Below, one piece after another: positions 8,261 to 63,951 of a DNA stretch of 64,000 bases (position 1 is the first letter of the stretch; each line of letters starts with the position of its first letter). The stretch spans positions 682,001-746,000 of the forward strand of contig JACATO010000999.1 in NCBI GenBank assembly GCA_018389105.1, in the 5' to 3' direction. The notes beneath the pieces were generated by a model. The model ran no database searches. It had not been told where the DNA came from and worked only from the letters and a program-made list of their open reading frames with translations. The translations under genes were made by a program, and so were the position numbers. The DNA comes from Nautilus pompilius. Lineage: Eukaryota; Mollusca; Cephalopoda; Nautilida; Nautilidae.

Positions 8261-8454
8261 GCCGTCAGTGGCACTCAGCTGCTCTTCGGGCTCTGGGCGG
8301 AATCGCAATCAAGAGATTTCGGAGACGGAATTTGTGTAATCGTGTGGCAGCTGTTGCTCTCTACGCTCGGCGCCCCGCTGGTTAATGTTAAAGAACAGAT
8401 CTACTATCGTGGCTTTCGTCGGCGAGGGATGCTTGCTGAAGTTTGGAATGGCAG

Positions 8455-8910
8455 GGTCGCTATATCGGGGTTTGGGGCTGTGTAATTTTAGTAGAACCAA
8501 CGACCCGGGAAATGGTTGTCAAAGTTTTAAACGGCAGGGTGGACGGAGTTGTTTACTCTTTACAAAATGATAGGTCGCTATATCGGGGTTTGGGGCTGCG
8601 AGCGTTGTGTAATTTTAGAACCAACGACCCGGGAATGGTTGTCAAAGTTTTAAACGGCAGGGTTGATGGAGTTGTTTACTCTTTACAAAATGATAGGTCG
8701 CTATATCGGGGTTTGGGACTGCGAGCGTTGTGTAATTTTAGAACCAACGACCCGGGAATGGTTGTCAAAGTTTTAAACGGCAGGGTTGATGGAGTTGTTT
8801 ACTCTTTACAAAATGATAGGTCGCTATATCGGGGTTTGGGGCTGCGAGCGTTGTGTAATTTTAGAACCAACGACCCGGGAATGGTTGTCAAAGTTTTAAA
8901 CGGCAGGGTG
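8455..8910. repeat. 123-bp tandem repeat, about 3.7 units
   Basis: Units begin GGTCGCTATATCGGGGTTTG at 8455, 8573, 8696 and 8819, giving steps of 118, 123 and 123. The last three are almost identical; the first is more diverged. Because 123 is a multiple of three, one plus-strand frame stays open through all units (8443-9048). The G+C level is higher than in the flanks. No protein family is recognised and I treat it as a minisatellite. Confidence 0.9.
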
Positions 8911-16625: not shown

Positions 16626-19600
16626 TTTGATGTCCTAATGAAACCAATGGCATGGAAATTACTTTTTTTGAAAAAGTGAGATGATAAGAAAATGATCCAG
16701 CAAAAAACTTAATACATCCAGTGCTTCACAAAATGAGTTATTGCTGGTTGAATCCATAGTATTTTCTTCAGATCTGTTTGAACAGCCCATCCTTGCAGGA
16801 AAAAAAAAAAAAAGAAAATCATCTAAAAAGTTTTAAAAAAAAGGAAACAAACAAAACGTTATTCAGTTTTTGGAGAGCATAATACAAAGGATGATTTGCA
16901 TTGTTACTTCAGCATGTCATTGGGATCTGTAATCAAGTTGCTAATGATACTATAATTTTTTTTCTCTAAAACTCGGTATTCTAAATCTAATGTAACAAAT
17001 CCCCATGATATATTATTTGCTACAAATAAAAATGTACCATCAATGTTTGCTATGGGTGTTTTTGCTTTAAATTAAAGGGAAAAATTTCAAAAAACGTTTA
17101 TTTATGCATTTCACCGTTCAAAGCGGCAATAACTTCCACGGTAATTTGTTGAGGTAGAGAAACAAACTAATCAGGGTTAAGAGGACTGAATATCTAATGT
17201 AAATTAAGCATTTACAAATAGTATTCCTCCACTTAATATCACCACCACTGCTGCATTACTTCACACTGACAAATTTTATTTCCAAATCCGTCCTTTGCAA
17301 CATGTATTTCAGTCCCTACTGAAGCAACAAACTGCACACATCTTATTTTACCAACTTACTTTAGAGTTACCGACATTAACAGCAACAGAGAGCATACATT
17401 AATTTATTCTAAGTGATCGGGCTTAACGCTAGACTGCCAGGGGAGGTAACTCACAACCAGAGTAACTTCAAAAGAACAAAAATAATGACCAAACAGAAAC
17501 AGTGTAGTATGTATTCAAATTATTTTAACCACTTTTAACAAAAAAATATATATTGTATTTTATAGATAATATGTTTGGGCACTAAGTTTAATTTGTGGGG
17601 TTTTTTTGCGATGATATGAAATGCATAAATTAACTATAAATTTATCTATATTTTAAACTTTATATTTTTTATATTGAAAAAAAACAAAAAACATAGCGTT
17701 CATCAGTTACATGTAATCTAGTGTAACATGGCGGACCTTGATATTAAGTGGCTGGGGCTGATAAAGTAAACAAATTTTATTAGTTTTTTGCTGTTTATTT
17801 TGGAATAAATCTCAGAAATAACCCGCAAGCAAACGAAAACGGTGGGGGAGAAAGAGAATGACACGAACTTCGTCGCTGTTCGTCTCAGGGACCGTGAGAT
17901 GCTCACTGCGTTTTTCACATTTTCCGCTGTCGAGCGCGATGCAGGACAAAGATGCCGTTTGCTGGTTTTGTAGAAGATTTAAGTAAAAGTAAGCTGTACA
18001 AATCCTCGTTATTTCATTCTGCTCGCGTCTGTTTGATGTCCACACCTCTGCATGGTTGTGTTTGCGTCACCCCGGCCCCAGCCCGAGCGGTTTTCCGCGG
18101 CTGGGTGGCGGTGCTGGAGTGAAAGGTCAGATCACATCAGCAGCGCACCTACTCTCCGAGCTCGGCGGCTATTATTATTATTACCAGCCACTTACGCTAT
18201 ATAGGGTAAAAAGGCTCCTTGCTAATCTAATAATCCATTAACTCTTCGGGCTGGTAAAACGAAGAGCAAAACACGTTCTCTAGCTTTTTGCATCTCGATT
18301 TCTATGGAGTAATATAGGTTTGTTTTGTGATAAGACCCTGGTTAGTGCTTGGTAACTGCTCACCATTCTCAATTGTCATCTTATAAATAGCACGGGTTAT
18401 ACATACAAACACCCACGAAATCAACCGCATCTGATATCAATGTATCTCATCCCATCCCCTGGCTTTGGCGATTTTAACCAGTTAAGCTGGGATTTAACTG
18501 ATTTTTCCTCTTTTTTTCTTTCCCAAACATTGGAGAGAAGTAGAGTTTTGAATAGTTCGGTCCGTAGCGAGAGGTTATGAAAGGGAAGTGTAAGTAAAAT
18601 CCATTATTAAAACCTTTTTTATTTTAGTTTTGACGATCGAACTGAGAAATATCCAGCTTTGATCAGATCGATGTACGATGGTCGTCTGCAACCAAATTGT
18701 AAACCATAGTTATTTTTGTTCATAATTAAATAATAAAAGATCTGGATAGTTTTTGCCATAAGATTAAGCTGATTTAGAGCCCTGAGCCTCCATGTAAATT
18801 TTTTATTTTTGGCATTGTAAGAGAAGATTTAGTAATCAGTACTTTTGTTGTTTCTTATTTTAAAAAAAAAAACAAACATTGTAAACAGTTGAAAGGAGAA
18901 AGCCTTAAATGAAACATGTTTCTACATTGCGATTTCTTGCTACTAAAACAATTAAGTTTTCTGTATTTTCATTGCTCTAACTCATCAAGTTTTTTATATG
19001 AACATTATGTGGAAACCATTGGAACCTGGTGTTATTTCATATTTGATTTTAATACAAGTAGGTGCTAAAATTAAGGAAAAATACATTGGTGCAAAACCAA
19101 TTTCAAAACTAAACTTGGGTAAAATTGGAAAATATTTTTTTGTAGTGTTTATGATTTACCATCAATTCTAGTGTGATCTGTTTCAGCAGACAACCTTCAG
19201 ACTTCTACTACAGCATTGTGGGAATATTATCTTAGCTGTTAGTTAATATAAACAAGTTTCATTCTCCATACAACACTTTTAAACATAGGGATAAATTTTT
19301 CTTTTTACTTGTAGGCAAAAACTATCAGTCTTGAGTTGTCATTACCTAAAGAACAATGTGAATTTATAATGAAACTTATTTTTATCCTGTTTCAAATTTT
19401 TTGTTTGTGCTATACATATATATGAAAGTCTTCTTTTTTTTTTTAAATTACAAACTCAGATTACAAAGTAAGAGTCAGCTAAAAAAGAAAACCACATAGT
19501 TGAAACCCTTGGCCAAGCATAATTTAAAATCAAATTGCCTACCATCCATCCATCCACCCATCCATTCAGTTTCAGCTTGCTTTACAATAGGTGGAACTGT

Positions 19601-20400: not shown

Positions 20401-20453
20401 TTTTAATAATTGTTCTTAGAAATTTTCAAGTTTGGACATCTTCAGCATAAAAA

Positions 20454-21998
20454 ATGTCTGAGAAGAATAAGCAGCCTCAAGCAGGAGAATTACTTTGCAT
20501 GTGTCAACTTTGCAAGAAATCATTCACTTATGAAAATTACATCATACACATTACAAGCCACCCAGGAGAACCATTTAGATGTCCCTACTGCGTTAACTCG
20601 TTTTTAAATTTTAACGATTTGAGCATCCATCTTAAGACTCATACCAATGAAACTGCATACAAAAATGAGTATGGAGAGAAAGCATTTGCAAACAGGCACA
20701 ATCCAACAAAGGATCAAAGACTTTCAGGTGAGAAAAGACCGTTTGCATGTAAGTATTGTGAAAAATTATTTCCTGACATTACTTCTCTTACCAGGCATGC
20801 GGACACTCACAAAGGAGAAACATCTTACAAGTTTGAATTTTCTGATGAGTTATTTCCATCTAAAGATATTTCCCAGAGACAGGTTAACTCTCATACTGGG
20901 GAAGCATCTCATGTGTGGGATTTTTGTGATGACTCATTTCCTGTCAATTCCACACTCAACAAACAGTTTAATAATGCATCCACCAGCAAGAAGCCTTACA
21001 AGTGTGAATATTGTAAAAAGTCATTTGCAAATAATTATCACTTCATGAAGCATGTGAAGCTCCATACTGGTGATAGTCGCTACAAATGTGAATACTGCGG
21101 AAAGTCATTTCTGAATAATTATCGCCTTGTAAGACATGTGAGAATTCACACAGGGGAGAGACCGTACAAATGTGAGTATTGTGAAAAGGGGTTTCTCAGC
21201 AAGTACCACCTTAACAGACATGAGAGGACCCACACCGGAGAAAGGCCATATAAATGTTATTATTGTTATAAATCTTTTTCAAATAACTATCATCGTATTA
21301 AGCACATGGACACCCACACGGGAAAGAAACCTTGTAAAGACAGCGCTGAGAAGTCGTTTTCAGACTCTGGTGAGGCTGCAAAACTTAACATCATAAATCC
21401 TGGGGAAACGGCATACAGATGTGAGTATTGTGATAAATTATTTTCACAGCGCCACGGTCTGAACATACATGTCAGCAGGTGCCACACTGAGAAGACGAAG
21501 AAACCCTACAAGTGTCAGTATTGCAACAAATCTTTTGCAAAGAACAGCACTGCAAACAACCACATGCGAACACACACTGGTCAGTACTGCAATAAATTGT
21601 TTTCGGGTGCCGATGAACTCAGTAAGAACAGTCAGCCACAAACAGCTGAAGGACTGTTTGAACGCAAGGAAACCTTTCCAGATCCCAATGGTGGGAGAAG
21701 GGTGCAGAATGAAGGAAGGCCCTACAAGTGTTTGTACTGCAATGAACTGTTTTCAGAATCCAACGCGCTGAACAAGCACATTGCAACCCACGTTAAGAAC
21801 ACTTACAAGTGTGAGCATTGCTATGAGATGTTTTTAGACAAAGACAGCCTCAGCCAGCACTGCAAACTTCATGCAGCAAAGTTATCCATGCTAACAGAAA
21901 AGGTGGCCAATCAAGAGATGCCTTGCAAGTTTGAGTGCTGTGAAGCAACATTTTCTTGCAATGCTTTTCCACAGCATTTAGTTTGTCATAAAAAATAA
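20454..21998 (+). CDS. C2H2 zinc-finger protein ZF-C, intact and degenerate fingers
   Basis: A 514-residue single-exon frame. Two fingers lie near the N-terminus (residues 10-66). A central array (about 180-290) holds four well-formed fingers with TGERPYKC linkers, and more fingers occur near 325-385 and 420-475. Several modules between them have lost zinc ligands but keep the linker and spacing: [10 protein letters not shown] has no Cys, [10 protein letters not shown] has none, [10 protein letters not shown] has one, and [10 protein letters not shown] has lost the normal pair. The protein ends with the odd module [16 protein letters not shown], shared with ZF-A. The start ATG follows the context GGACATC..AAAAATGTC, similar to ZF-B, downstream of an acceptor (GTTCTTAG). 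A poly(A) signal AATAAA lies at 22225-22230. Confidence 0.93.
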
Positions 21999-29552: not shown

Positions 29553-29708
29553 CAGATTATTTACCTTGGTGGCTATCATCATAAAATGTAATTACTTAAT
29601 TAAAAAATCTGCAGTGCAAGGATTATGAGAGTAATGTAAAAAAATTTTACATTGAAGAAAGGGAGGTAAACATGATGCCACGCAAAAAGTGACCTTCATA
29701 CTGGTAAT
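29553..29708 (+). promoter_or_regulatory. Acceptor and 5' leader of ZF-D
   Basis: A strong polypyrimidine tract with CAG at 29553-29555 marks the start of the ZF-D coding exon. The leader (29556-29708) contains three minimal upstream reading frames (ATG at about 29586, 29625 and 29671), each ending within seven codons, so translation of ZF-D may be dampened. Confidence 0.5.
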
Positions 29709-31349
29709 ATGATGGGAGAAAAGGAGCAAAAATGGATTGAGAAAAATGAGCTAGAAAAATCCAAGAGAAATCAGCAACAGTCTCACAAAAATGAGGAGTT
29801 CCTGAAAAATGAAGACATGAAGTTGCATCAATTTAAACAGGAGAATGAGGAAGATATGGATATTTTAAGAAGCAGTCACAAGCTAAGTGAGGCCAGCCAA
29901 AAGGAGCAGGATGAGAACAAGCTGGAAGAGTGTAAGATAGTGAAACCCTTGAAAGTCAAGCAAGAACAGAGTGATGACCATGGGAAGTCTGCAGAAGATT
30001 GTCAGGTACAATGTAAGGAGTCTGTACAAAAGCAGCTGAAGAAAGAATTGAACTCACCAAAATTACCTATAAATGATAAACAAGAAGGGTCGAGAATGAA
30101 CAGATGCAGCATTTGCAAAAAAATGTTTATATATAAGAGTCATTTGACCACTCATTTGAGGTGCCATACTGGGGAGCGACCTTACAAATGTGAGTATTGC
30201 ATAAAGTCATTCTCATACAGGAGCCACCTCACCACTCACATCAGGAGTCACACTGGTGAGAGACCTTATAAATGTAAGTACTGTGACAAATCATTTTCAG
30301 ACAGAACAGGGCAAACTAAACATCTTCGAACTCACACTGGCGAGAAGCCTTATGAGTGTGATTTCTGTGATCAGTCATTTTCAACTAAAAGTAACGTCAA
30401 CAGACACATTAGGTTTCATACTGGGGAGAGACCGTATAAATGTGACTTTTGTGAGAAATCATTTTCTTACTGGAATTCACTCACCAAGCATTTTAGAAGC
30501 CACACTGGCGAGCGACCATATAAATGTGAGTATTGTGAAAAGTCATTTCTGAGCAGTAGTCATCTCACAAGGCATGTGAGAATCCATACTGGGGAGAGAC
30601 CTTACAAGTGTGAACTTTGCAAAAAACTCTTTTCATATAAGAGCCATTTGGTAGTACATGTTCGGACTCACACTGGGGAGAGACCTTACACATGTAAATT
30701 CTGCAATAAATCCTTCTCATATAATAGTCACCTCACCACACACATTAGGATTCACACGGGGGAAAAGCCCTACAAGTGTGATCACTGTGAGAAGTCTTTT
30801 ACAAATAACACTGGACTTACCAAACATCGCAGAAACCATACCAAGGATAAAAGCGAACTTTGTGAGAAACCATACAAATGTAATTACTGTGAGAAAACTT
30901 TCTCAAAGAAGTTTGGACTTACCAAACACATCAGGATACACACTGGTGAAAGGCCATATAAATGTGACCAATGCAGCAAGACATTTGGAAATAGGGGTCA
31001 TCTCACAAGGCATGTGAAAGTTCACACTGGGGAGACAGCTTACAGGTGTGAATACTGCGATAAGTTGTTTACAGAGCATAGAGTGTTCATGCGACATGTT
31101 ACATCCCACACTGGAGAAAAACCATTTAAGTGCACAACATGCAGCAGAGGATTCATGCAGCGGCGAAATCTAGTTAAGCATGTTATGACCCACATTGTGG
31201 AAAGACCTTGTGATGACATACTTGTTAATTCTAGAGGAGAAGACACACATGGCAATGAGATCTTAGCTTCTGAGGATAGCTTGGCTTCCAAAGAAAATCC
31301 ATTTGATGAAGATTTGCAATCTGATGCAAATACACTTAATGTTAATTAA
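29709..31349 (+). CDS. C2H2 zinc-finger protein ZF-D, 13 fingers
   Basis: A 546-residue single-exon frame. Residues 1-130 are charged (Lys/Glu/Gln-rich, possibly coiled-coil) and hold VKQE at 83-86, a consensus SUMO acceptor site. Thirteen intact C2H2 fingers follow from residue 133 to about 499. They carry standard TGERPYKC linkers except between fingers 9 and 10, where an 11-residue spacer (TKDKSELCEKP) is inserted. An acidic tail (about 500-546, ENPFDEDLQSD) follows. It is the least decayed zinc-finger gene in the cluster: all ligands are present. Its likely role is nuclear DNA binding with a possible regulatory N-terminus. The second ATG, three bases on, is an equally possible start. Poly(A) signals lie at 31608-31613, 31804-31809 and 32029-32034. 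Confidence 0.95.
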   Translation: MMGEKEQKWIEKNELEKSKRNQQQSHKNEEFLKNEDMKLHQFKQENEEDMDILRSSHKLSEASQKEQDENKLEECKIVKPLKVKQEQSDDHGKSAEDCQVQCKESVQKQLKKELNSPKLPINDKQEGSRMNRCSICKKMFIYKSHLTTHLRCHTGERPYKCEYCIKSFSYRSHLTTHIRSHTGERPYKCKYCDKSFSDRTGQTKHLRTHTGEKPYECDFCDQSFSTKSNVNRHIRFHTGERPYKCDFCEKSFSYWNSLTKHFRSHTGERPYKCEYCEKSFLSSSHLTRHVRIHTGERPYKCELCKKLFSYKSHLVVHVRTHTGERPYTCKFCNKSFSYNSHLTTHIRIHTGEKPYKCDHCEKSFTNNTGLTKHRRNHTKDKSELCEKPYKCNYCEKTFSKKFGLTKHIRIHTGERPYKCDQCSKTFGNRGHLTRHVKVHTGETAYRCEYCDKLFTEHRVFMRHVTSHTGEKPFKCTTCSRGFMQRRNLVKHVMTHIVERPCDDILVNSRGEDTHGNEILASEDSLASKENPFDEDLQSDANTLNVN

Positions 31350-37350: not shown

Positions 37351-37680
37351 TATTTTTGTATCAGTACTGTAGGAAATCATTTTCCTCATCCAGTCATCTC
37401 ACATCACACGTACACACCCATACAGGAGAGAAACCCTTCAGAGGTGAATACTGTAGTAGATTTTTTGCCAAACAAGTGTAGATGCGCACTGGAGAAAAGT
37501 CTTACAAGTGTTGATATTGCAGGGAAGTTGTTTTTGAGAAGTGTGTACTTGCATGTGCATTGAGAAAATGCGTGTGAGTGTTGTGAAAGATCATTCATTA
37601 GTTTTGGCCCTCTGGCTACGCACATTAGAACTCTGGTGAGAGACCCTGTGAATGTGACCAATGCGAGAAAGCTTTTATAG
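37351..37680 (+). pseudogene. Decayed zinc fingers upstream of ZF-E
   Basis: About four or five finger modules can be read only by switching frames. They are [27 protein letters not shown] followed by a TAG; YKC, TGA, YC; CECCERSFISFGPLATH with its last ligand lost; and CECDQCEKAF broken by a one-base shift at the ZF-E start. Linkers such as HTGEKPF are still visible. ZF-E therefore probably began further upstream in the past. The first of these modules has a matching decayed copy upstream of ZF-F. Confidence 0.7.
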
Positions 37681-38869
37681 ACCACAAAGTTCACTGAAAG
37701 GGCATGTGAAAACTCACATGCAAGATGATAAAAAGACACCTGGAAAACATCAGTGTGAACATTGCAGGAAAGTGAGTGTGAACATCAGGAGCTGCAGGAT
37801 GCATGCTAGGTACCATTTGAAGGCAAAATCTTTTCGGTGCGAGCACTGTGAGAAATGTTTTCTCCATCTTTTCCAGTTGAAAAGGCATGAAAGTACTTGT
37901 GCTGAAAAACGATCTTATATCTGTGAGTATTGTGGGAAGATGTTTTTCAACACGAGCCACCTCACTTCCCACATCAGAACGCACACTGGCGAGAAGCCTT
38001 ACAAGTGCGATCACTGTGAGAAACACTTTGCTGAGCGCAGCAGTGTGAAGAAACACGTAAAAACACACACAGCAAGCAAGAAACCAGTTTACATTGTTCG
38101 GAAAGCTTTCAGATGTGAACACTGTGAGAAATCGTTTTCCTGCACCTCCCATCTGATTGCACACGTGAGAATTCACACCGGGGAGAAACCTTACAAATGC
38201 GTCTTTTGTGAGAAGTCTTTTGTAGATCGCAGCAGTCTGACCAAGCATGTGAGAATTCACACAGGAGAAAAGCCATTTAAGTGTGAATTTTGTAGTAAGC
38301 TATTTTCTGAGAGTAGCTCTTGTAGAAAGCATGTTCGAAGACATGGAATGGAGATGTTTCACAAGTGTAAACATTGTGGAAAACATTTTTTTCATTTTCA
38401 CAGTCTGACGAAACATTTGAGGACTCACATAGAAAAGCCAACACATGTGTGTGAACATTGTGGGAAAGTCTTTTCTCGATCAAGCCATTTGTTGGCACAT
38501 GTTAGAATCCACACTGGCGAGAAGCCATGTAAATGTAAATTTTGTGAGAAATCCTTCACGGAGAGCAGTACATTGAGAAAACACATTAGGATTCACACCG
38601 GAGAAAGGCCGTACGTTTGTGAGTATTGCAGCAAATCATTTTTTGACAACAGTAGCCTCAACAGACACATAAGGATGCATACTGGGGAGAAACCCTACAA
38701 GTGTGGAGAGTGTGACAAAACCTTTTTGCAACCCAGTCATCTTACGAAACATGTGAGAACTCACACAGGTGAGAGACCCTACAGATGTGAGCACTGTGGC
38801 AAAGGATACCCTCGTTACTTTTGTTTGGTCAGGCATCTTAAAAGCCATCATGCAGATAAGCAACTTTAA
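37661..38869 (+). CDS. C2H2 zinc-finger protein ZF-E, 13 fingers
   Basis: A 402-residue frame with a half finger (SSLKGHVKTH) at its start and 13 finger modules. Module 2 ends H-x3-C in place of H-x3-H. Non-standard linkers mark the order: KAKS, AEKRS, ASKKPVYIVRKA, GMEMF and IEKPTH. These match ZF-F module for module, so the two are paralogs. The array ends with the GKGYPRYFCLVRH module and a short tail. The ATG at 37661 lies within a broken finger, so it may be a fortuitous start, with real transcripts beginning upstream. It may still encode a working 13-finger protein. A poly(A) signal lies at 38963-38968. Confidence 0.85.
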   Translation: MRESFYRPQSSLKGHVKTHMQDDKKTPGKHQCEHCRKVSVNIRSCRMHARYHLKAKSFRCEHCEKCFLHLFQLKRHESTCAEKRSYICEYCGKMFFNTSHLTSHIRTHTGEKPYKCDHCEKHFAERSSVKKHVKTHTASKKPVYIVRKAFRCEHCEKSFSCTSHLIAHVRIHTGEKPYKCVFCEKSFVDRSSLTKHVRIHTGEKPFKCEFCSKLFSESSSCRKHVRRHGMEMFHKCKHCGKHFFHFHSLTKHLRTHIEKPTHVCEHCGKVFSRSSHLLAHVRIHTGEKPCKCKFCEKSFTESSTLRKHIRIHTGERPYVCEYCSKSFFDNSSLNRHIRMHTGEKPYKCGECDKTFLQPSHLTKHVRTHTGERPYRCEHCGKGYPRYFCLVRHLKSHHADKQL

Positions 38870-46102: not shown

Positions 46103-46640
46103 TTGTTGTCAGAGAAAACAAAAAGGCGGAAATGTCTCATCAGGAAACGAAGCAGTGGCTATTGTAATTCTGTGCATGATAGCGCATTATTTTATGGGTT
46201 TACGAGTATAAATCACTCTTCTATTTCTTCCCACCCACCCAAAAAAACCTCCATGTTACAAAGAGTCGAAGTTAAAATACTGCAAACTTTGATTGTTGTT
46301 GGAGGCGCTGAAGCCAAACTCTTTCTGAACACTTGTGAATACCGAAAGATATCTACCGCCAAAAAATTATGGAACCTAAGGAAGAAGAATGGAAAACTTG
46401 CAATTTTTCGAGTTTTCAAAGGCAAAAAATGTTTTAAAAATCCTGTAAAAAAGGGGGAGAAGAAAAATCTACATTTGTGTACAGTCAGAAATCATTTTCT
46501 TACGCTAGTCTTCCCTTTTGAGAGCCTAGACTAGCGAAAGGCCGCATCACTGTGAGTATTGTGGAAAGTCGTTTGCGCTGAATAGTAGTGGCATGAGAAG
46601 GCTTACTAAAGATTATACTAGAGGGGGAAGAAAAAAAAAA
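46103..46640 (+). pseudogene. Degenerate N-terminal part of ZF-F
   Basis: After an acceptor (polypyrimidine then TTGTCAG, near 46112) a basic frame of about 140 codons runs to 46534 without an ATG start. It ends in LCTVRNHFLTLV, the counterpart of the decayed [14 protein letters not shown] finger upstream of ZF-E. Another frame then gives [19 protein letters not shown], a finger without its histidines. A poly(A) run just before 46646 is a likely frameshift site. The parts may be remnants, or the true N-terminus with sequence errors. Confidence 0.45.
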
Positions 46641-46645
46641 CAACA

Positions 46646-47950
46646 ATGCTTAATTTTGGAAAACAGTATAAATGTGAACAGTGCGGGAAACATTTTTCCC
46701 AGTCCAGCCATCTCACGGTGCACGTTAGGACTCACACTGGTGAGAAACCTTACAAATGTGAGTACTGTGAAAAATCTTTCAGCGAAACTAGCAGCCTCAC
46801 GAAGCACATGAGGACACATACGGGGGAAAAACCCTACAGCTGCAACCACTGCAGCAAAGCATTTTCAGACAGCAGTAGCTGCAAGAAGCATATCAGACAT
46901 CATTTTGTGAAGAAAACGTACCGGTGCGAGCATTGTGATGTACTGTTCCATAATATGGCGCACCTGAAAAAACACCTGAAGACCTATGCAGAAAGAAAAT
47001 CATACATTTGCGAGTACTGCGGGAAATTATTTTCGAATAGCAGCCATTTAATGTCACATATTAGAACGCACACTGGTGAAAAACCGTTTAAATGTGAGAA
47101 GTGTGAGAAGTATTTTGCAGAACGGAGCAGCATGAAAAAACACTTAAAGACACACGTGGGGAAGAAGCTAGTCTGCTCCATCGTCAAGGCTTTTAAATGT
47201 GAGCATTGTGACAAATCATTTGCACGTGCTTCCCATCTTACAGCGCACATTAGAACTCATACAGGTGAGAAGCCTTACAAGTGCGTGTTCTGTGAGAAAT
47301 CTTTTGTTGATGGCAGTAGTCTGACAAAACATGTAAGAACCCACACTGGTGAGAAACCATACAAATGCGAATACTGTGGTAAATTCTTTTCAGAGAGTAG
47401 CTCCTGCAGAAAACATGTTAGAAAGCATGGCATCGAAATTTTTCATAAATGTGAGCACTGTAACAAATTGTTCAGCCAGGTTCATAGCCTCGTAAAACAC
47501 CTGAGAACCCATGTCAATAAGATGACGTACATATGTGAACACTGTGGTAAAGTCTTTTCTCAGTCGAGTCATTTGATGGCTCATGTTAGAATTCACACTG
47601 GTGAGAAGCCTTACAAATGTGAGCACTGTGATAAATCGTTTACAGAGAGCAGTAGTTTGAGAAAACATGTCAGGATTCACACAGGTGAAAAGCCCTACAT
47701 TTGCAAGCATTGTAGTAAGTCGTTTCTTGATAACAGCAGCCTCCACCGACACGTTAGGACTCACACAGGTGAGAAACCTTACAAATGTGACGAGTGCAAT
47801 AAGGCATTTTTGCAACCTGGACATCTTACGGAACATGTGAGAATGCACACAGGTGAGAGACCCTATAGATGCGAGTTGTGTGGGAAAGGATATCCACGCA
47901 ATGCGTGTTTAGTTCGGCATCTGAGAACTCATCCTGGATACAGACAGTGA
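46646..47950 (+). CDS. C2H2 zinc-finger protein ZF-F, 15 finger modules
   Basis: A 434-residue single-exon frame that is almost all zinc fingers, 15 modules from residue 7 to the end. Fourteen have complete C2H2 ligands; module 4 ends H-x3-Y. Standard TGEKPYKC linkers alternate with unusual ones (VKKTY, AERKS, GKKLVCSIVKA, GIEIF, NKMTY) at the same places as in ZF-E, showing recent common descent. The last module (GKGYPRNACLVRH) lacks the usual F and matches the last module of ZF-E. It is probably a nuclear DNA-binding regulator. The ATG at 46646 sits after an A-run and leaves no N-terminal domain, so the natural start may lie further upstream. A poly(A) signal lies at 48446-48451. Confidence 0.92.
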   Translation: MLNFGKQYKCEQCGKHFSQSSHLTVHVRTHTGEKPYKCEYCEKSFSETSSLTKHMRTHTGEKPYSCNHCSKAFSDSSSCKKHIRHHFVKKTYRCEHCDVLFHNMAHLKKHLKTYAERKSYICEYCGKLFSNSSHLMSHIRTHTGEKPFKCEKCEKYFAERSSMKKHLKTHVGKKLVCSIVKAFKCEHCDKSFARASHLTAHIRTHTGEKPYKCVFCEKSFVDGSSLTKHVRTHTGEKPYKCEYCGKFFSESSSCRKHVRKHGIEIFHKCEHCNKLFSQVHSLVKHLRTHVNKMTYICEHCGKVFSQSSHLMAHVRIHTGEKPYKCEHCDKSFTESSSLRKHVRIHTGEKPYICKHCSKSFLDNSSLHRHVRTHTGEKPYKCDECNKAFLQPGHLTEHVRMHTGERPYRCELCGKGYPRNACLVRHLRTHPGYRQ

Positions 47951-54238: not shown

Positions 54239-54247
54239 CTATATAAG
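54239..54247 (+). promoter_or_regulatory. TATA box of the Gly/Tyr/His-rich secreted-protein gene
   Basis: CTATATAAG lies 96 bases upstream of the start codon. Transcription would start near 54270, giving a leader of about 65 bases. A strong TATA box suits a highly and cell-specifically expressed secretory gene and differs from the CpG-type 5' regions of the zinc-finger genes. Confidence 0.75.
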
Positions 54248-54334
54248 CCGCTAGGCGAACTTGGTAAGTCACTTGCCAGCTACTTGGCGGCTTGCACATT
54301 TCTCGTCGTCGGTCGACATCCTTCGATCCTCAAG

Positions 54335-54368
54335 ATGAAGGCTTTCACCAGTTTCTGCGCCATCGTCG
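54335..54368 (+). CDS. Exon 1 (signal peptide, first part)
   Basis: Codes for MKAFTSFCAIV plus one base, followed by the donor GTACGT. The ATG has AAG before it (CAAGATGA) and is the first after the predicted transcription start. Confidence 0.8.
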
Positions 54369-57300
54369 GTACGTGCGACTTTAGCCGATGCCACCCCTCA
54401 CTAGGACGCTCCAACGCTTCGCTGCGTAAAGCGACATAACATCAACAATACCAGGAAGCAGCCCTAAACAATCTCGTTTTTATTTTGTAATCACGCATTT
54501 GATATTAGTTAGCGATCTGCTGTGCAGCTAACTCTCCTGCACCGCTAACTTAGCGGGAATTCCCAGTAAATTAAAGGGCACATGCTCTTCGAAGATGCAT
54601 TGTTCTCTTGTCAAGAAAAGCACAGAAAGCTTTGTCCTCATCATAGACGTGCAAAAACTGGGTGGGGGTGGGGTTTGGTGTTAGTTACTCTTTTTCAAAT
54701 CTCACTTCAAAAGAGCTACAAACACAAGACAGTGGTCACCGAAATATCGACTTGCAAATTATTATTTTTTTTAAAAATTAATAATTATTGTTATTTAAAC
54801 TTTGCCTCTCTTTTTTTGTCTTCTCTCTCTTTCTCTTTTTTCCAGCATTTCTTTCGATCCTTTTCGCAGTTGGTGCTCATTCTCAGCGTAAGTTTCTCTT
54901 TGTATCTTTGTTTTTTTTCCGAATGGAATAAATTCAGGTGCGGTCCGCTTTCATCTGTTCAGTCGATTTTGGCAATCACCCGGAAGTCGAGACCGGTCGG
55001 GTCCCGCTCGGTGGTCCCGCTATAAGATTTTAAATCCTGTTTGTCTCTGTCATTCGTGAATGTCGCCCGAACCCCTCGACGAAGGCTCCTAGGAGGTGAG
55101 ATGCAGTGAGAGGAGTTACACTCAGAGTGCTTACTGTTGCAATGGCGTACATGGGTCTCAACAACAGAGGTGGCATCCCTACAGGGGAGACAACAAGTGG
55201 TGCTGCGGTTATCCGCCAGAGGGCGTTTTTTTGGTTTTTTTTTTTTTGCGCCATGACAGATCCTGCGCTTCCGACATCTGCAGTCCTCGCTATAACGCAT
55301 TTCTAGATGCGGGAGGAAACCGGAGTACCCGGAAGCAATACAGTTGGCTGGTGAAAAGGATCCTAAAGAAACTATGTAAGGAAGGTACGTCAAGCCGAAC
55401 TGGTCCAGACCGGGGTTCGAAATCGGGCCCTGCAGTTTTACCAGTCCATAGACTAACAACTGGACCCACCAGCTTAACTCTGTCGTCTAGTAAAAACTGT
55501 TGTTCTTTAAACACCCTTATTACTAACAATAATAAATAACTGGCAATAATCAAGGTTTTTATACTTGTTTTTTTTTTAAAAAAAAGACTAATCCTGAAGG
55601 GCATTTTGCAGGATTTGAAACATTTTAAATGCCAGGTAAGCAGAATTGCGGCCACTCACACCGCGCCAGCAGGTATCTGGTCGCTCATTACTTTTTTTCT
55701 ACTTTCACTTTGATAAATCCCCCAAAAAGCAACAAAAAACCACGAGATGGAGGTCTCTAAAGTAACGGTACGAGAAGATCCGCCTAATTATTTCTCACCT
55801 GGATTTGCTAACTTGTTATGACTAATTTTACCATCGAAACCGAAACGTGGGTAACGTGACTTAAAATGGCGTCCTCCCTGTCCCAGCGATTCGATGGAGT
55901 TTTGCTTAGACTAATATTATTACTTTCAGTTATCGGCGGATCGTCCGTCAGCTCCAAGCACATCCACAAGGTGACCAGTGGAATTGCCAGAGGTAAAGCT
56001 TTTGGATTTGCACCATAATTTATACATCACGACGCAATGGCTTAAAAAAAGAAAAAAGAAAACGATTTACTCCTTCAATCCGATTGTATCCCGTCTCCGC
56101 CCTAAAGTTTCATCTGGTTTAGGTAATGTTTTTGTACTTTCAGTTCACGGCGTCCTGCCTGGATATGGAGGAATCCCCCACCGTTACGGCCTCACTGGCG
56201 GCTTTCCCGGTAATAGCGGTTGAGCGTTTCGAAGAATTTCCAAAAACCATGCAGTACCAGGCTGTCTGTAGACCTGCGCCGGACGCACTGGCAGTCTTCA
56301 CACGAGCGGGTCCGTATGGCAGGACAGGGTCCCCGCGCCTGTTGTTCGTTGGCGATCAAAAAATACCCGCCACCTTGGTTGATACCGTCTCATTAATTAC
56401 GAAAACTTCTCAGTTTCTAAAATTTCCAGCTTGGTGAAATGCGGAGTTTCGTCAGAATCTGAAGACGTTACTCTTTGCGTGTTCCCTCTGTAATTATTCT
56501 GACACAGCCGTGACCCCACGGCACGGCAGGAAAGCTGCAACTACAGCAGACTTGTCGTCAAGCATGGTGCGTCTGTATTCTCGGCGAGAATTCCTTACTG
56601 CGGCTCTACATCAGCTCTTCGACTCAATACTTGCTATAGTTCTCGCTCTCGTCAGTTTTCTTTAAGCAGGTAATAAAATTAAAATTGCAAATTAACTGCA
56701 GTTTGTAGTAAACATTTCCATCACGGTTCGAGAGCCTTCGGTGATGCAGGCCGCTGCTCATGTAGCAAAGTTATATATATATAAATAATCTTCTGGGAAA
56801 CACGAAGGTAATATTTCTTATTACCATTGCTGAATCTATTTTGAGGTTTTACCTGATTTAAGTGGAATGTTTTATACTTTCAGCTTACGGTTCACCTTTT
56901 GGATATGGAGGAATGTACCGTAGGTACGGGATGCATGGCGGTTTACACGGTAATGAAAGCTAATTTATTTTGTGCTGTAAATGGAATTACAAGTAAAGCA
57001 TAAGTGAACATCACCTCTTTACTGAGTAGGTAATTACGGATTGTCTCCCTTGATGACGGTAACTCCGAATCTCGTCGTGCGTGAACTCTCAGCTCGAAGA
57101 CCAAGAAACGATTCGTAACAGCTTTTCACGGGAAAGGTAACAACAGGTGGAGGTAACTGCTAGCTGACGAGCTGTCAGTTCTCTCCGAAGTCAGCGAGAG
57201 GAACTCTGCTCGCTCGCGGAATCTACCATTAGTTTTGTACCATTTAAAACAAGGAGTGTAGACCGGCTGCTTCTGTCAATATACCTTGCCACTTTTAGGA

Positions 57301-57870: not shown

Positions 57871-58789
57871 TTGCAGATATGGGAGAAAACGAGCAACCGA
57901 TTAGGACGCAACACCGCTGCTGGATCTTTATTGCTACAGACAAAAAACCCAGCCCTGACCGCGCCCTTTATTTATTCAGTTTGTTTTCTGTAACATCGAC
58001 TCATGAAGTGATAACCTTCTCCATCTAAAGCTTCTCCATTCAATGGCAAAGACACCATCCCACAATCGCTACAATTTTAAATAACCGGAACAGTAACGAT
58101 TCTAGTAAAATCTCAACAGCTCTTTTTACCCTTCAATGTAGTTTTACATATACCACCGATTCTTTTCCGTTTAAACCACGATTTGGAATATCATTGAAGT
58201 CACGAATCCATTCTCTATCAGGGGTTCTTTTCCATAGCTCTGATAAAACCATCTTTTATATCTTAAACCTTGTCTATAGCACCGTCGAACAACACCGACT
58301 TTTCTAATGCGTTTTTTTTTTTTGTTTTACCTGTTTTGGTGAATTGTCTGGATGGAATCTTGATTTCAATCGGTACCTGGTCCACAGTAGCTGTACCTTA
58401 GTGAATGCTTCTCGTCAGGTTCCTTAATTCAACCCAAGGTGAAGCCGAGAGGGGGGGGGTTCTGTCAAACTCCTGAATTAAAAAAGAGATTCTTCTCACA
58501 GTTTCTATGTTCCAATTAACACCAGTCAGTATTGTTACCGGTTACCTGGTTTTAATTTTTTAAAAAAGTTTTCAAAAACTTGCAAATTGTTGAAACAATG
58601 CGTTTTATCTGAATTTTAAAAACGCCATCAACATTCACATAATGTACTGTTCCTAAATGGACCAGAGTATGACGTCAGTAGGCGGAATCACAGTACGAGG
58701 AAAGCTTCATAAAAGCTGAAAACCGTTTATGCTCTACTTTCACCTTTAAGGTTGTACCCGAGACGTCATTTTTAAATAAATACTTTCAG

Positions 58790-58861
58790 CTCACGGTTTA
58801 ATGCATGGATACGGATACGGAAGAATTCACCATGGCATCGGCCTGGCTGGCGGTTTTCCGG
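58790..58861 (+). CDS. Repeat exon A1
   Basis: Codes for a 24-residue module: HGLMHGYGYGRIHHGIGLAG plus GFP, with split codons at both ends (A at the start, G at the end). Acceptor TACTTTCAG, donor GTAATA. Related to exon 4. Confidence 0.85.
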
Positions 58862-59072
58862 GTAATAAAACTTACTTTTTCTTTTTGGCTGAAAAGTTAC
58901 TAAACTACAAAATATATGAGAATAAAAAGTAAGTCATGCCTGACACTGATCCTGACAGAAGTAGCTATGCATAATTATATACAAAATATCAAATGCTGTA
59001 CTATTGTTATTATTATTCTTGGTTCTATATTGAGGTTTTATCTGACTTTGGTGGAATACTATATACTTTCAG

Positions 59073-59138
59073 CTTACGGTTCATCGTTAGGATACGGAGG
59101 AATGTATCGAAGATACGGCATGCATGGCCGTTTACCTG
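59073..59138 (+). CDS. Repeat exon B1
   Basis: Codes for a 22-residue module, YGSSLGYGGMYRRYGMHGRL plus P. Acceptor TACTTTCAG, donor GTAATT; the next codons in the intron read into a TAG, so retention would stop translation. Related to exon 5. Confidence 0.85.
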
Positions 59139-59363
59139 GTAATTAGAATTAACTTTTTATTCTTTCTAATATAAAAACATGCAATAATTTATTTTCTTTT
59201 ACCATTCTACCTCTTTGCTAAAGTTTTTTAAATACTTATATAAAAGGCAAATGCTTGCAAATATGGAAGGAAAGCTTCATAAAAGCTGAAAACCGTTTAT
59301 GCTCTACTTTCTTTCACCTTTAAGGTTGTACCCGAGACGTCATTTTTAAATAAATACTTTCAG

Positions 59364-59435
59364 CTCACGGTTTAATGCATGGATACGGATACGGAAGAAT
59401 TCACCATGGCATCGGCCTAGCTGGCGGTTTTCCGG
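59364..59435 (+). CDS. Repeat exon A2
   Basis: Same protein module as A1; one synonymous change (CTA for CTG). Confidence 0.85.
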
Positions 59436-59634
59436 GTAATAAAACTTACTTTTTCTTTTTGGCTGAAAAGTTACTAAACTACAAAATATATGAGAATAAA
59501 AAGCAAGTCATGCCTGACACTGATCCTGACAGAAGTAGCTATGCATAATTATATACAAAATATCAAATGCTGTATTATTGTTGGTTCTATATTGAGGTTT
59601 TATCTGACTTTGGTGGAATACTATATACTTTCAG

Positions 59635-59700
59635 CTTACGGTTCATCGTTAGGATACGGAGGAATGTATCGAAGATACGGCATGCATGGCCGTTTACCTG
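59635..59700 (+). CDS. Repeat exon B2
   Basis: Identical module to B1 (GMHG form). The preceding intron is the short variant. Confidence 0.85.
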
Positions 59701-59922
59701 GTAATTAGAATTAACTTTTTATTCTTTCTAATATAAAAACATGCAATAATTTTATTTTCTTTTACCATTCTACCTCTTTGCTAAAGTTTTTTAAATACTT
59801 ATATAAAAGGCAAATGCTTGCAAATATGGAAGGAAAGCTTCATAAAAGCTGAAAACCGTTTATGCTCTACTTTCACCTTTAAGGTTGTACCCGAGACGTC
59901 ATTTTTAAATAAATACTTTCAG

Positions 59923-59994
59923 CTCACGGTTTAATGCATGGATACGGATACGGAAGAATTCACCATGGCATCGGCCTGGCTGGCGGTTTTCCGG
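59923..59994 (+). CDS. Repeat exon A3
   Basis: Same as A1 (CTG form). Confidence 0.85.
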
Positions 59995-60204
59995 GTAATA
60001 AAACTTACTTTTTCTTTTTGGCTGAAAAGTTACTAAACTACAAAATATATGAGAACAAAAAGTAAGTCATGCCTGACACTGATCCTGACAGAAGTAGCTA
60101 TGCATAATTATATACAAAATATCAAATGCTGTACTATTGTTATTATTGTCTTGGTTCTATATTGAGGTTTTATCTGACTTTGGTGGAATACTATATACTT
60201 TCAG

Positions 60205-60270
60205 CTTACGGTTCATCGTTAGGATACGGAGGAATGTACCGCAGATACGGCATGTATGGCCGTTTACCTG
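60205..60270 (+). CDS. Repeat exon B3
   Basis: B module with His to Tyr (GMYG in place of GMHG) and synonymous TAC CGC codons. Confidence 0.85.
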
Positions 60271-60492
60271 GTAATTAGAATTAACTTTTTATTCTTTCTA
60301 ATATAAAAACATGCAATAATTTTATTTTCTTTTACCATTCTACCTCTTTGCTAAAGTTTTTTAAATACTTATATAAAAGGCAAATGTTTGCAAATATGGA
60401 AGGAAAGCTTCTTAAAAGCTGAAAACCGTTTATGCTCTACTTTCACCTTTAAGGTTGTACCTGAGACGTCATTTTTAAATAAATACTTTCAG

Positions 60493-60564
60493 CTCACGGT
60501 TTAATGCATGGATACGGATACGGAAGAATTCACCATGGCATCGGCCTAGCTGGCGGTTTTCCGG
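60493..60564 (+). CDS. Repeat exon A4
   Basis: Same as A2 (CTA form). Confidence 0.85.
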
Positions 60565-60771
60565 GTAATAAAACTTACTTTTTCTTTTTGGCTGAAAAGT
60601 TACTAAACTACAAATATATGAGAATAAAAAGTAAGTCATGCCTGACACTGATCCTGACAGAAGTAGCTATGCATAATTATACAAATATCAAATGCTGTAC
60701 TATTGTTATTATTATTCTTGGTTCTATATTGAGGTTTTATCTGACTTTGGTGGAATACTATATACTTTCAG

Positions 60772-60837
60772 CTTACGGTTCATCGTTAGGATACGGAGGA
60801 ATGTACCGCAGATACGGCATGTATGGCCGTTTACCTG
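60772..60837 (+). CDS. Repeat exon B4
   Basis: GMYG form, as B3. Confidence 0.85.
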
Positions 60838-61057
60838 GTAATTAGAATTAACTTTTTATTCTTTCTAATATAAAAACATGCAATAATTTTATTTTCTTTT
60901 ACCATTCTACCTCTTTGCTAAAGTTTTTTAAACTTATATAAAAGGCAAATGTTTGCAAATATGGAAGGAAAGCTTCTTAAAAGCTGAAAACCGTTTATGC
61001 TCTACTTTCACCTTTAAGGTTGTACCTGAGACGTCATTTTTAAATAAATACTTTCAG

Positions 61058-61129
61058 CTCACGGTTTAATGCATGGATACGGATACGGAAGAATTCACCA
61101 TGGCATCGGCCTGGCTGGCGGTTTTCCGG
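61058..61129 (+). CDS. Repeat exon A5
   Basis: Same as A1 (CTG form). Confidence 0.85.
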
Positions 61130-61340
61130 GTAATAAAACTTACTTTTTCTTTTTGGCTGAAAAGTTACTAAACTACAAAATATATGAGAATAAAAAGTAA
61201 GTCATGCCTGACACTGATCCTGACAGAAGTAGCTATGCATAATTATATACAAAATATCAAATGCTGTACTATTGTTATTATTATTCTTGGTTCTATATTG
61301 AGGTTTTATCTGACTTTGGTGGAATACTATATACTTTCAG

Positions 61341-61406
61341 CTTACGGTTCATCGTTAGGATACGGAGGAATGTACCGCAGATACGGCATGTATGGCCGTT
61401 TACCTG
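61341..61406 (+). CDS. Repeat exon B5
   Basis: GMYG form, as B3. Confidence 0.85.
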
Positions 61407-61629
61407 GTAATTAGAATTAACTTTTTATTCTTTATAATATAAAAACATGCAATAATTTTATTTTATTTTACCATTCTACCTCTTCGCTAAAGTTTTTTTA
61501 AATATTTATATAAAAGGAAAATGTTTGCAAATATGGAAGGAAAGCTGCTTAAAAGCTGAAAACCGTTTATGCTCTACTTTCACCTTTAAGGTTGTACCTG
61601 AGACATCATTTTTAAATAAATACTTTCAG

Positions 61630-61701
61630 CTCACGGTTTAATGCATGGATACGGATACGGAAGAATTCACCATGGCATCGGCCTAGCTGGCGGTTTTCCG
61701 G
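61630..61701 (+). CDS. Repeat exon A6
   Basis: Same as A2 (CTA form). Confidence 0.85.
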
Positions 61702-61900
61702 GTAATAAAACTTACTTTTTCTTTTTGGCTGAAAAGTTACTAAACTACAAAATATATGGAAATAAAAAGTAAGTCATGCCTGACACTGAACCTGACTGAA
61801 GTAGCTATGCATAATTATATACAAAATATCAAATGCTGTATTATTGTTGGTTCTATATTGAGGTTTTATCTGACTTTGGTGGAATACTATATACTTTCAG

Positions 61901-61966
61901 CTTACGGTTCATCGTTAGGATACGGAGGAATGTATCGAAGATACGGCATGCATGGCCGTTTACCTG
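61901..61966 (+). CDS. Repeat exon B6
   Basis: GMHG form with a short preceding intron, so it matches B2 more closely than its neighbour B5. Confidence 0.85.
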
Positions 61967-62030
61967 GTAATTAGAATTAATTTTTTATTCTTTATAATAT
62001 AAAAACATGCAATAATTTTATTTTAAGCTA

Positions 62031-63370
62031 ATTTACGTCTTTTCTAAAACTGTTTTTTTTTTTAAATTTAAGAAATTATAGAAACACAAATAAGCCAATG
62101 GTATTACGAATGCGATGGTATGACGAGGCTAATGCTTTTTCATATACATTATTTAGAAAATATGTCCATACGTCAAGGCATTCAGAATTCCGCGCGAAAA
62201 AAATTATTGCTTTAAAATTTGTTTTTTTAAAATTCTTCTACTCATTTCCCGACCAGCTGTGGCCACGTGTAGCAGATGGCAAGCAAACAGAAACACGCTT
62301 CAGTCCCATCAATCACGAGGTACTGACGGAAACTATGACATTTCTATAAAAAGTGTGAAGAAAGCCAAATCTCTTACACTTTCGGAAATATGGCATTTTT
62401 AGCAGACATCTTCCAGTGTCGATATCAAAGGGGGCAGACAGATATTGTGGAGGTGCTATGTACTCGAAGGGATTAGTTCGGACCGTGTTTCTATCATCTT
62501 ATTAGTGTTTCAGCGGGAATGTCTCTCTAATTAGATGGAAGTCGCACGCTCCTGAATCGTCCTTTATATGGATTTTTTTATCCCCCCTCCCAAACCCAGC
62601 TGAACGGGTCCTGTTGTTGTTGTGTTTTGAAGGCTTCTTTGCTTTCACGAAATAGTAAGATCATACACAAAAACTAGCAGGTAGGAATTTCCATAACGGT
62701 GGTTCTGTGTACGTCAGGCCTGTGATCGTGTGGCCCGACATGAGCAGCTTAAACTCCAATGTGCTTGATATGATCGCTCGTCTTCATAGAGGAAAACTGA
62801 TTGATGATTTCATGGGTTTCGAGAAAGAATATCCCGTATCTCCTTTCACTCTCAGAGAAGCTGGTTAACTATTAGAGATAAAGATAACCCATTTCTAATT
62901 ATGCGAACAAAAGCATGGACTCCAAGAGGTGAAAAGACAAAGAAGAAAGGTTCTGAGAAAACAGGCAACCAACATAACGACATTGTAGATCATGGATGAC
63001 GTGACATGCATTTATCCTCGTTGATCTAGATTATCTACATATAAATAATTATCTACAGAATATCAAATATTCTATATAACTCATTATTTCTATTCTCATT
63101 AGTTGAATTAGAAGTAGAAATATCCAGCCTACCTTAACTGCCCACTTGACTTTTTAAAAAACCTTACCTACGTTGGCTTTACGGTTGGCCATCGAGAAGA
63201 TTTCTCAAACATCATACACTACTAGCTCACACGTAGATTGAAAGTAAAAGAAATGGGCAGTTTTCCCACTAATTCATCTAGTACGATACGTTCCCAGGCA
63301 GTAGCTGATCTCTGTTAACCATGGACTCTGTTACCGAGCATAGTTCGCATTAGCAAAGGAGGCTGTGGCT
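62031..63370. other. Spacer after the exon array
   Basis: No A- or B-type exon, signal-peptide exon or terminal exon was found. An 83-codon open frame at 62098-62349 has no recognisable features. Confidence 0.4.
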
Positions 63371-63930
63371 GTACGATAGACAACATGTCCGCGTAATTAC
63401 AGATAACGGTGAAGACTCATTATTACGATTCTACACGAACTCTTCGACTGAATAACTGCTGTAGTTCTCACTGTCAGTATATTTAGTTTTTTTCTTTAAA
63501 TCTGCAAGCAACATTAATTTAAAAAAAACAAACAAACTAATTATAGTTAGTAGATGTTTCCATCACGGTTCGAGAGCCTTCGGAGATGCAGGCCGTCGAG
63601 TAGCAAAGTTTATATACGTAAATGATCTTCCAAGAAACAAAAAGGTAATATTTCTTATTACCATTGCTGAATCTATTTTGAGGTTTTACCTGAATGTTTT
63701 ATACTTTCAGCTTACGGTTCACCTTTTGGATATGGAGGAATGTACCGTAGGTACGGGATGCATGGCGGTTTACACGGTAATGAAAGCTAATTTATTTTGT
63801 GCTGTAAATGGAATTACAAGTAAAGCATAAGTGAACATCACCTCTTTACTGAGTAGGTAATTACGGATTGTCTCCCTTGATGACGGTAACTCCGAATCTC
63901 GTCGTGCGTGAACTCTCAGCTCGAAGAACA
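63370..63930 (+). repeat. Duplicate of the exon-5 region
   Basis: Matches about 56540-57105. The match is imperfect in the left part and nearly perfect for about 150 bases after the exon. Shared landmarks are CATCACGGTTCGAGAGCCTT, the exon, and the stretch to CTCAGCTCGAAGA. The match ends near 63930. Confidence 0.9.
63711..63776 (+). CDS. Exon B7 (copy of exon 5)
   Basis: Identical in coding sequence to exon 5, phase 1-1, acceptor TACTTTCAG, donor GTAATG. The exon that should follow would lie beyond the window (exon 5 is 350 bases from the terminal exon). Confidence 0.85.
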
Positions 63931-63951
63931 ACGTTTGTAATCGCAACCGCC

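Follow-up and report, generated by a model that had tools for sequence, protein, structure and literature searches.

In the Argiope silk gene MaSp2 the repeat unit comprises two exons and two introns, the repeated introns are on average 97.6% identical (94.3-99.7% in individual genes), and two alternating types of homogenised intron were, to the authors' knowledge, without a second example among eukaryotic genes (PMC9779670). Tropoelastin is a secreted, Gly-rich (30%) protein of alternating module types with phase 1 intron/exon borders (PMC3458006). The squid beak proteins HBP-1 and HBP-2 consist of Gly/His/Tyr-rich tandem repeats, and their phase separation is driven by Tyr and His (PMC6884462), while in the schistosome micro-exon genes symmetric exons of 6-36 bp make up about 80% of the coding region (PMC5825161). 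The shell matrix proteins of Nautilus pompilius itself carry repetitive Gly motifs, poly (Gly or Gly-Ala), without a clear known domain (PMC8257504).

Here we describe a locus in a 64,000-nucleotide stretch of N. pompilius DNA (the whole stretch analysed, called the window) at which exons encoding two module types, A and B, alternate in tandem (Table 1). A first-pass annotation had claimed six A-B pairs and a 46-residue A+B block, and both were confirmed: all 12 exons within 58790-61966 are open, in phase 1-1 and bordered by AG and GT, and the modules of 24 and 22 residues add up to 46. The signal-peptide exons and the single A-like and B-like exons that it had placed upstream were all found, with exon 5 ending at 56949 as claimed. 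The array itself stood, but its proposed extent (58700..62030) had to be widened slightly at both ends, and the term 'micro-exons' was abandoned, the array exons of 66-72 nt being short rather than micro-exons in the schistosome sense. Exon 5', an extra B-type exon beyond the six pairs, was absent from that annotation; it lies inside a 240-nt stretch that is 100% identical between the duplicated exon 5 and exon 5' regions.

The gene model comprises 20 exons from 54335 to about 66740 (window numbering), which when joined give 1251 nt with a single open frame of 416 residues and a TAA stop; the exon-3-like and terminal exons were picked by eye, and an alternative to the 17-nt terminal exon is possible. 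All 19 introns are in phase 1, and all 18 internal exons (first and last excluded) are symmetrical 1-1. The splicing of the array into the upstream transcript, proposed in the first-pass annotation, is consistent with in-frame joining both upstream and to the downstream stop and polyadenylation signal, and the symmetry of the internal exons would permit the block-wise change of length without frame shift that it had also proposed.

Table 1. Features of the predicted gene and its array (window numbering)
Feature	Position	Strand	Remark
TATA-box-like TATATAAGCC	54240..54249	+	presumably a TATA box; ATG 95 nt downstream
Exon 1	54335..54368	+	start codon and first half of signal peptide (MKAFTSFCAIV..)
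Exon 2	54846..54887	+	remainder of signal peptide (..AFLSILFAVGAHSQ), judged by eye; phase 1-1
Exon 3	55930..55992	+	phase 1-1; reads VIGGSSVSSKHIHKVTSGIAR with preceding G
Exon 4	56144..56209	+	single A-like module
Exon 5	56884..56949	+	single B-like module
Tandem A-B exon/intron units	58698..62058 (about)	+	n=6, spacing 559-574 nt, last unit shortened
Exon A1	58790..58861	+	72 nt
Exon B1	59073..59138	+	66 nt
Exon A2	59364..59435	+	72 nt
Exon B2	59635..59700	+	66 nt
Exon A3	59923..59994	+	72 nt
Exon B3	60205..60270	+	66 nt
Exon A4	60493..60564	+	72 nt
Exon B4	60772..60837	+	66 nt
Exon A5	61058..61129	+	72 nt
Exon B5	61341..61406	+	66 nt
Exon A6	61630..61701	+	72 nt
Exon B6	61901..61966	+	66 nt
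Duplicate of exon 5 region (56582-57104)	63407..63931	+	overall identity ~85%
Exon 5'	63711..63776	+	B-type, phase 1-1, identical to exon 5
Exon-3-like exon	65561-65629	+	past window end; chosen by eye
Terminal exon with stop	66353-66369	+	past window end; chosen by eye
AATAAA polyadenylation signal	66713	+	past window end

A splice pattern devised after the array exons had been seen ([CT]TTTCAG + 36-110 nt open phase 1-1 + G|GTAA) matched the + strand of the window 16 times, each time within the gene, and the - strand not at all; the same scan of 20 first-order Markov simulations gave a mean of 0.15 and a maximum of 1 match per strand. Units 1-5 are 97.5-99.5% identical in pairwise comparison, and all six units are distinct, with 3-34 mismatches and 2-6 gaps per pair (the pairs with unit 6 being inflated by its end). 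Since 28 of the 45 pairs of informative sites failed the four-gamete test, the units exchange sequence. The six-unit alignment has no gap columns in A (0/72) or B (0/66) and 68/442 in the rest, a count inflated by the shortened end of unit 6. The introns are homogenised along with the exons, as two alternating types, with mean identities of 98.7% for the AB introns (n=6) and 97.9% for the BA introns (n=5). The locus shows two features of modular structural-protein genes built from iterated, homogenised exon-intron units, namely a repeated exon-intron unit with near-identical introns and symmetrical exons permitting in-frame gain or loss of units.

One version of the array was found in the assembly: a word from one A exon has six exact matches, all in the array on contig C954. 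Protein searches of the 728-Mb assembly with the A/B modules and with exons 3, 4, 5, the exon-3-like and the terminal exon revealed no relatives outside the gene at E<1; only the top candidates were scored at the level of single exons, which leaves room for short, diverged exons to escape, and neither query included the signal peptide. The A/B query gave 16 matches, 14 in the gene and two weak ones (C600, E 1.38; C610, E 5.01), the former of which was dropped, its stretch, read in part, being microsatellite and repeat-like DNA. All 11 matches of the other query fell in the gene. No further modules were detected in the surrounding 133 kb (E<=0.5); weak matches outside the gene to exon 4 (C954:792092, E 0.24) and to the signal peptide (C954:683709, E 0.10; C954:696823, E 0.37) were dropped. 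The module peptide words were absent from the open-licence literature searched.

The predicted mature chain of 391 residues is basic, lacks Cys, Asp and Glu altogether, and contains 28.9% Gly, 12.5% Tyr, 10.2% His and 8.2% Arg. DUF6329 and DLL_N were the only Pfam families matched at E<=1; the DUF6329 match, which exceeds the curated cut-off (28.7 versus 26.8 bits, E 1.1e-6) with no single stretch above it, we take to be a match of composition. A 142-residue query (A-B-A-B plus exon 5, the exon-3-like and the terminal exon) matched no PDB sequence at E<=1. The predicted tryptic peptides include YGMHGR, YGMYGR, LPAHGLMHGYGYGR and IHHGIGLAGGFPAYGSSLGYGGMYR.

In common with Argiope MaSp2, the locus has a two-exon/two-intron unit, near-identical introns and a Gly-rich secreted repeat product, but its exons encode 22-24 residues, its units number six, and no poly-Ala was seen by eye in the predicted protein. 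Spidroins have conserved N- and C-terminal domains; spidroin identity was rejected, as no spidroin family appeared in Pfam at E<=1. Besides the Argiope study there is one more silk-gene paper, judged by title, in which 'iterated introns' occurs once (PMC1885213); beyond these two, no silk-gene paper was recognised by title in the literature on repetitive or homogenised introns, the rest of which was judged by titles and the starts of abstracts. Tropoelastin is matched in Gly content, alternating modules and phase 1 borders, whereas the Nautilus units are nearly identical and rich in Tyr, His and Arg. In tropoelastin, Lys-containing cross-link domains alternate with hydrophobic ones, and elastin identity was rejected because no Lys occurs in any A or B module. 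The squid beak proteins are likewise cephalopod Gly/His/Tyr-rich tandem repeats, but the Nautilus protein is Arg-rich with a 46-residue unit, and membership was rejected on the absence of their pentapeptides from the mature chain (GHGxY, 0; GAGFA, 0). Schistosome micro-exon genes also encode secreted proteins from short symmetrical exons; in Nautilus a low-complexity module recurs almost unchanged from exon to exon, and with 18 of 20 coding exons longer than 36 nt this class was rejected as well. The shell matrix proteins of N. pompilius, compared by description only, are similarly repetitive, Gly-rich and without a clear known domain, but poly (Gly or Gly-Ala) was not seen by eye here.

Exon 5 and B1 differ by 7 synonymous changes at ~15 sites and 4 nonsynonymous changes at ~51 sites (dS 0.70, dN 0.083; Fisher p 0.0016 with rounded sites), a synonymous excess which, resting on 11 changes, suggests coding constraint. 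Older module copies compared with newer ones give a dN/dS below 1. The signal was weaker for exon 5 against B3 (p 0.013) and not significant for exon 4 against A1 (p 0.068); dN/dS was higher for exon 4 against exon 5 (dS 0.66, dN 0.49) and against B1 (dS 0.95, dN 0.54), where different module types are compared. Identity alone does not distinguish the exon 5/B1 pair, because 59 of 75 aligned bases are identical in the upstream intron and 55 of 66 in the exon, and the openness of the array, taken alone, is weak evidence because the array is so young.

The array exons could be left unused: the mRNA would run from exons 1-5 directly into the 3' exons, bypassing a recent array that would be a non-functional or rarely included duplication. 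Its splice sites may be weak: the donor +5 base is T in exons 4, 5, A, B and 5' (G in exons 1, 2 and exon-3-like), and the pyrimidine fraction in the last 20 bases of the acceptor is 0.55 for A and 0.50 for B (0.55-0.65 for exons 3-5, 0.90 for exon 2). However, the older exons 4 and 5 share the +5 T and the exon 5 acceptor is as pyrimidine-poor as that of A, so these features do not reflect decay of the array, and borders and frame are kept in all 12 array exons, which makes this reading improbable. It is very unlikely that the assembler created the number of units or the exon 5/5' duplication: units of up to 99.5% identity and the perfectly matching 240 nt would fit such an error, but all six units differ from one another, the duplicate diverges outside that stretch, and the published assembly of the species, if it is the same, rests on 112.5x PacBio (PMC8257504).

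The charge of the product could also indicate a cationic secreted defence peptide precursor of the Gly/His/Tyr-rich antimicrobial type, its modules cleaved out at basic sites. Besides the signal peptide, the mature chain has a predicted pI of 10.3, contains 36 Lys+Arg and no acidic residue, and has Arg-Arg in every B module; the A modules and exon 4, however, lack Arg-Arg, consecutive modules have no spacers, and neither Pfam match is named as such a peptide. We regard this origin as unlikely. A neuropeptide-like precursor carrying repeated peptides could be envisaged too, given the signal peptide, the tandem repeats with Arg-Arg once every 46 residues, and Gly-Arg in A (GYGR-I) as well as in B (HGR-L) as a possible single-residue processing site. 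The precursor features looked for were Gly-Lys-Arg or Gly-Arg-Arg and acidic spacers, and by eye none of these was present in the predicted protein, leaving this the most far-fetched of the alternatives.

Instead, the exon structure and composition point to a single 20-exon gene whose product is probably a repetitive, basic, secreted protein rich in Gly, Tyr and His, most likely an extracellular structural (material-forming) one, in a setting such as the shell organic layer, beak, radula or egg capsule. The predicted protein resembles material proteins of the silk or elastin type. All 20 exons would be spliced into one mRNA, and the product may self-assemble via Tyr/His/Arg-Gly contacts, perhaps with oxidative Tyr cross-links. 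Blocks of 46 residues would be gained or lost through unequal crossing-over and gene conversion among units, allowing the chain to change in length without damage to the frame.

If expressed as modelled, this would be an apparently undescribed cephalopod material protein, judging by the open-licence literature, and useful to biomaterials work. The array is a case of two alternating homogenised intron types in a phylum distant from Argiope, and it touches the open question of whether repeated introns help to homogenise repeated coding units; being small (3.4 kb), it can be typed across individuals by single long reads. More tentatively, the mollusc may represent a second, independent case after Argiope of a structural-protein gene of this kind, in which the A-B count would differ from one individual to another through unequal crossing-over, and within one individual through cassette splicing of array exons with weak sites, so that both the length of the protein and its material properties could be tuned.

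The window covers bases 682001-746000 of C954, a contig of 933,328 bases; the assembly totals 727.6 Mb in 2558 contigs. We found six A exons of 72 nt and six B exons of 66 nt alternating where the first-pass annotation had placed them, and every one was open, in phase 1-1, preceded by AG and followed by GT. We scanned both strands of this 64-kb window for a simple splice pattern around 36-110 nt of open phase 1-1 sequence. The plus strand gave 16 hits, 16/16 in this gene, and the minus strand gave none, while 20 first-order Markov simulations gave a mean of 0.15 and a maximum of 1 per strand; the pattern was devised once the exons had been seen and thus fits them by design, and the informative part is the empty background.

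Downstream of the array, exon 5' is followed by two coding exons that were selected by eye, the first of which has a short His/Lys/Val core in common with exon 3 (HIHKVTSGIAR vs STHHKVKAIHGVH, by eye). Joined to exons 1-5 and the array, these 3' exons give a 20-exon model of 1251 nt that would encode 416 residues, and 19/19 introns are in phase 1. A TATA-like TATATAAG lies 95 nt upstream of the ATG, and the N-terminus MKAFTSFCAIVAFLSILFAVGAHSQ is, by eye, hydrophobic and of signal type. The constant phase across all pieces favours the gene model as support rather than proof. Splicing of the array into the upstream transcript, the central proposal of the annotation, gains support from this 3' end and would still be a prediction from the DNA. 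The gene model itself is a real and well-built finding.

Features of the gene's 3' end and zinc-finger frames, in window numbering (for L007, the DNA fetched past the window end, add 63000)
Feature	Position	Strand	Remark
C2H2 zinc-finger open frame	249-1178	-	by eye
C2H2 zinc-finger open frame	14247-16634	-	Pfam-confirmed
C2H2 zinc-finger open frame	20451-21995	+	Pfam-confirmed
C2H2 zinc-finger open frame	29676-31346	+	Pfam-confirmed
C2H2 zinc-finger open frame	37658-38866	+	by eye
C2H2 zinc-finger open frame	46622-47947	+	by eye
exon 5'	63711-63776	+	window numbering
exon-3-like exon	65561-65629	+	picked by eye beyond window
terminal coding exon, ends in TAA	66353-66369	+	picked by eye beyond window
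AATAAA	66713	+	beyond window
C2H2 zinc-finger open frame	L007 about 6700-7670		by eye

Donor position +5 is T in exons 4, 5, A, B and 5', G in exons 1, 2 and the exon-3-like exon, and A in exon 3, and the pyrimidine fraction of the last 20 acceptor bases is 0.55 for A, 0.50 for B, 0.55-0.65 for exons 3-5 and 0.90 for exon 2. Both features bear on splice-site strength, and from them we infer that the module exons may be candidates for skipping. The frame is kept whichever module exon is skipped.

Pairwise identity is 97.5-99.5% among units 1-5. Unit 6 reaches 93.5-94.4%, in part because its end extends beyond the repeat. All four combinations occurred in 28/45 pairs of informative sites, although these 28 are not independent, as several sites have one pattern in common, and column 323, involved in 7 of them, overlaps an indel. 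Such pairs do not arise under a simple duplication tree in which mutations do not recur; unequal crossing-over or gene conversion, by which units exchange sequence, generates them. A second trace of exchange may lie around exon 5, whose region (56582-57104) is duplicated at 63407-63931 with about 85% identity over 0.5 kb, including 240 nt without any difference that have the look of a recent gene-conversion tract. The introns are of two kinds, with a mean identity of 98.7% among the six AB copies and 97.9% among the five BA copies. Between the kinds all matches were short and weak, the best covering 12 bases at E 0.005; the 81% returned by a global aligner counts ungapped columns only and is no evidence of relation.

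Selection is untestable on the array copies because they are too alike (B1 vs B3: 2 synonymous, 1 nonsynonymous change). Older pairs do allow a test. Exon 5 differs from B1 by 7 synonymous changes at about 15 sites and 4 nonsynonymous at about 51 (dS 0.70, dN 0.083; Fisher p 0.0016), and from B3 by 6 and 5 (p 0.013); exon 4 vs A1 gave 8.5 per 17 and 10.5 per 49 sites (p 0.068 after rounding). Constraint is lower in the older cross-type pairs, exon 4 vs exon 5 (dS 0.66, dN 0.49) and exon 4 vs B1 (dS 0.95, dN 0.54). However, 59/75 aligned bases upstream of exon 5/B1 are identical, near the 55/66 within the exon, so this conservation extends beyond the exon, which counts against the coding argument. 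In the unit alignment, gap columns number 0/72 in A, 0/66 in B and 68/442 in the remainder, where the cut-off end of unit 6 accounts for some of the gap columns and for some of the 37 variable columns.

The predicted mature chain, after a putative signal peptide, has 391 residues (about 41.6 kDa, predicted pI 10.3), with Gly 28.9%, Tyr 12.5%, His 10.2%, Arg 8.2% and no Cys, Asp or Glu. By sequence comparison a single module recurs, in different versions, as A (AHGLMHGYGYGRIHHGIGLAGGFP), B (AYGSSLGYGGMYRRYGMHGRLP, with MHG -> MYG in B3, B4 and B5), exon 4 and exon 5. In Pfam, DUF6329 formally passed (28.7 bits, cut-off 26.8); no single stretch passed alone, and we took it as a composition match. 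DLL_N fell below cut-off (E 0.041), and a 142-residue query of modules and 3' exons had no PDB match at E<=1. All matches to the modules and flanking exons better than E 1 in the assembly fell in this gene, which thus appears to be single-locus here.

C2H2 zinc-finger open frames flank the gene upstream and downstream, on both strands. Elsewhere in the window, a U11 spliceosomal RNA match (RF00548, 83.3 bits) lies at 8248-8377 (+), with a tandem repeat of 123 bp a short distance downstream (8492-8909; 3.4 copies, 98% match). At 2812-3707 there is an imperfect microsatellite of CA/ACAT type, about 0.9 kb long, in which several frames of either strand are open through composition alone. The assembly also holds mollusc-type hemocyanin sequence at C557:780470-791999 and C1362:511129-522124, contigs that may represent two genes or two haplotypes, with at least seven functional-unit matches each (14/14 above the Pfam cut-off). 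One of these units was compared with the eight units in the chain of PDB 6r83, a decapod cephalopod entry, and scored 539 bits against the seventh and 323-415 bits against the others. PMC4491423 gives seven units per subunit for octopods and Nautilus, and eight for squids and cuttlefish. The hemocyanin sequence is among the evidence that makes Nautilus the likely source.

The nearest gene architecture is that of Argiope MaSp2, whose unit comprises a pair of exons together with homogenised introns of two alternating types (PMC9779670); the authors of that study were aware of no further eukaryotic example. Tropoelastin (PMC3458006) resembles this gene in its Gly content, in the alternation of its modules and in having phase 1 borders. 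Squid beak HBPs have similar Gly/His/Tyr chemistry and a cephalopod origin, but the HBP motifs (PMC6884462) are absent from this protein. By the membership tests run, the gene belongs to none of these three families. Within the literature searched on module peptide words and repetitive or homogenised introns, the gene is apparently undescribed. It is ordinary in kind, with tandem symmetrical exons and a predicted repetitive secreted protein, and is set apart by its unusual, neatly alternating homogenised introns.
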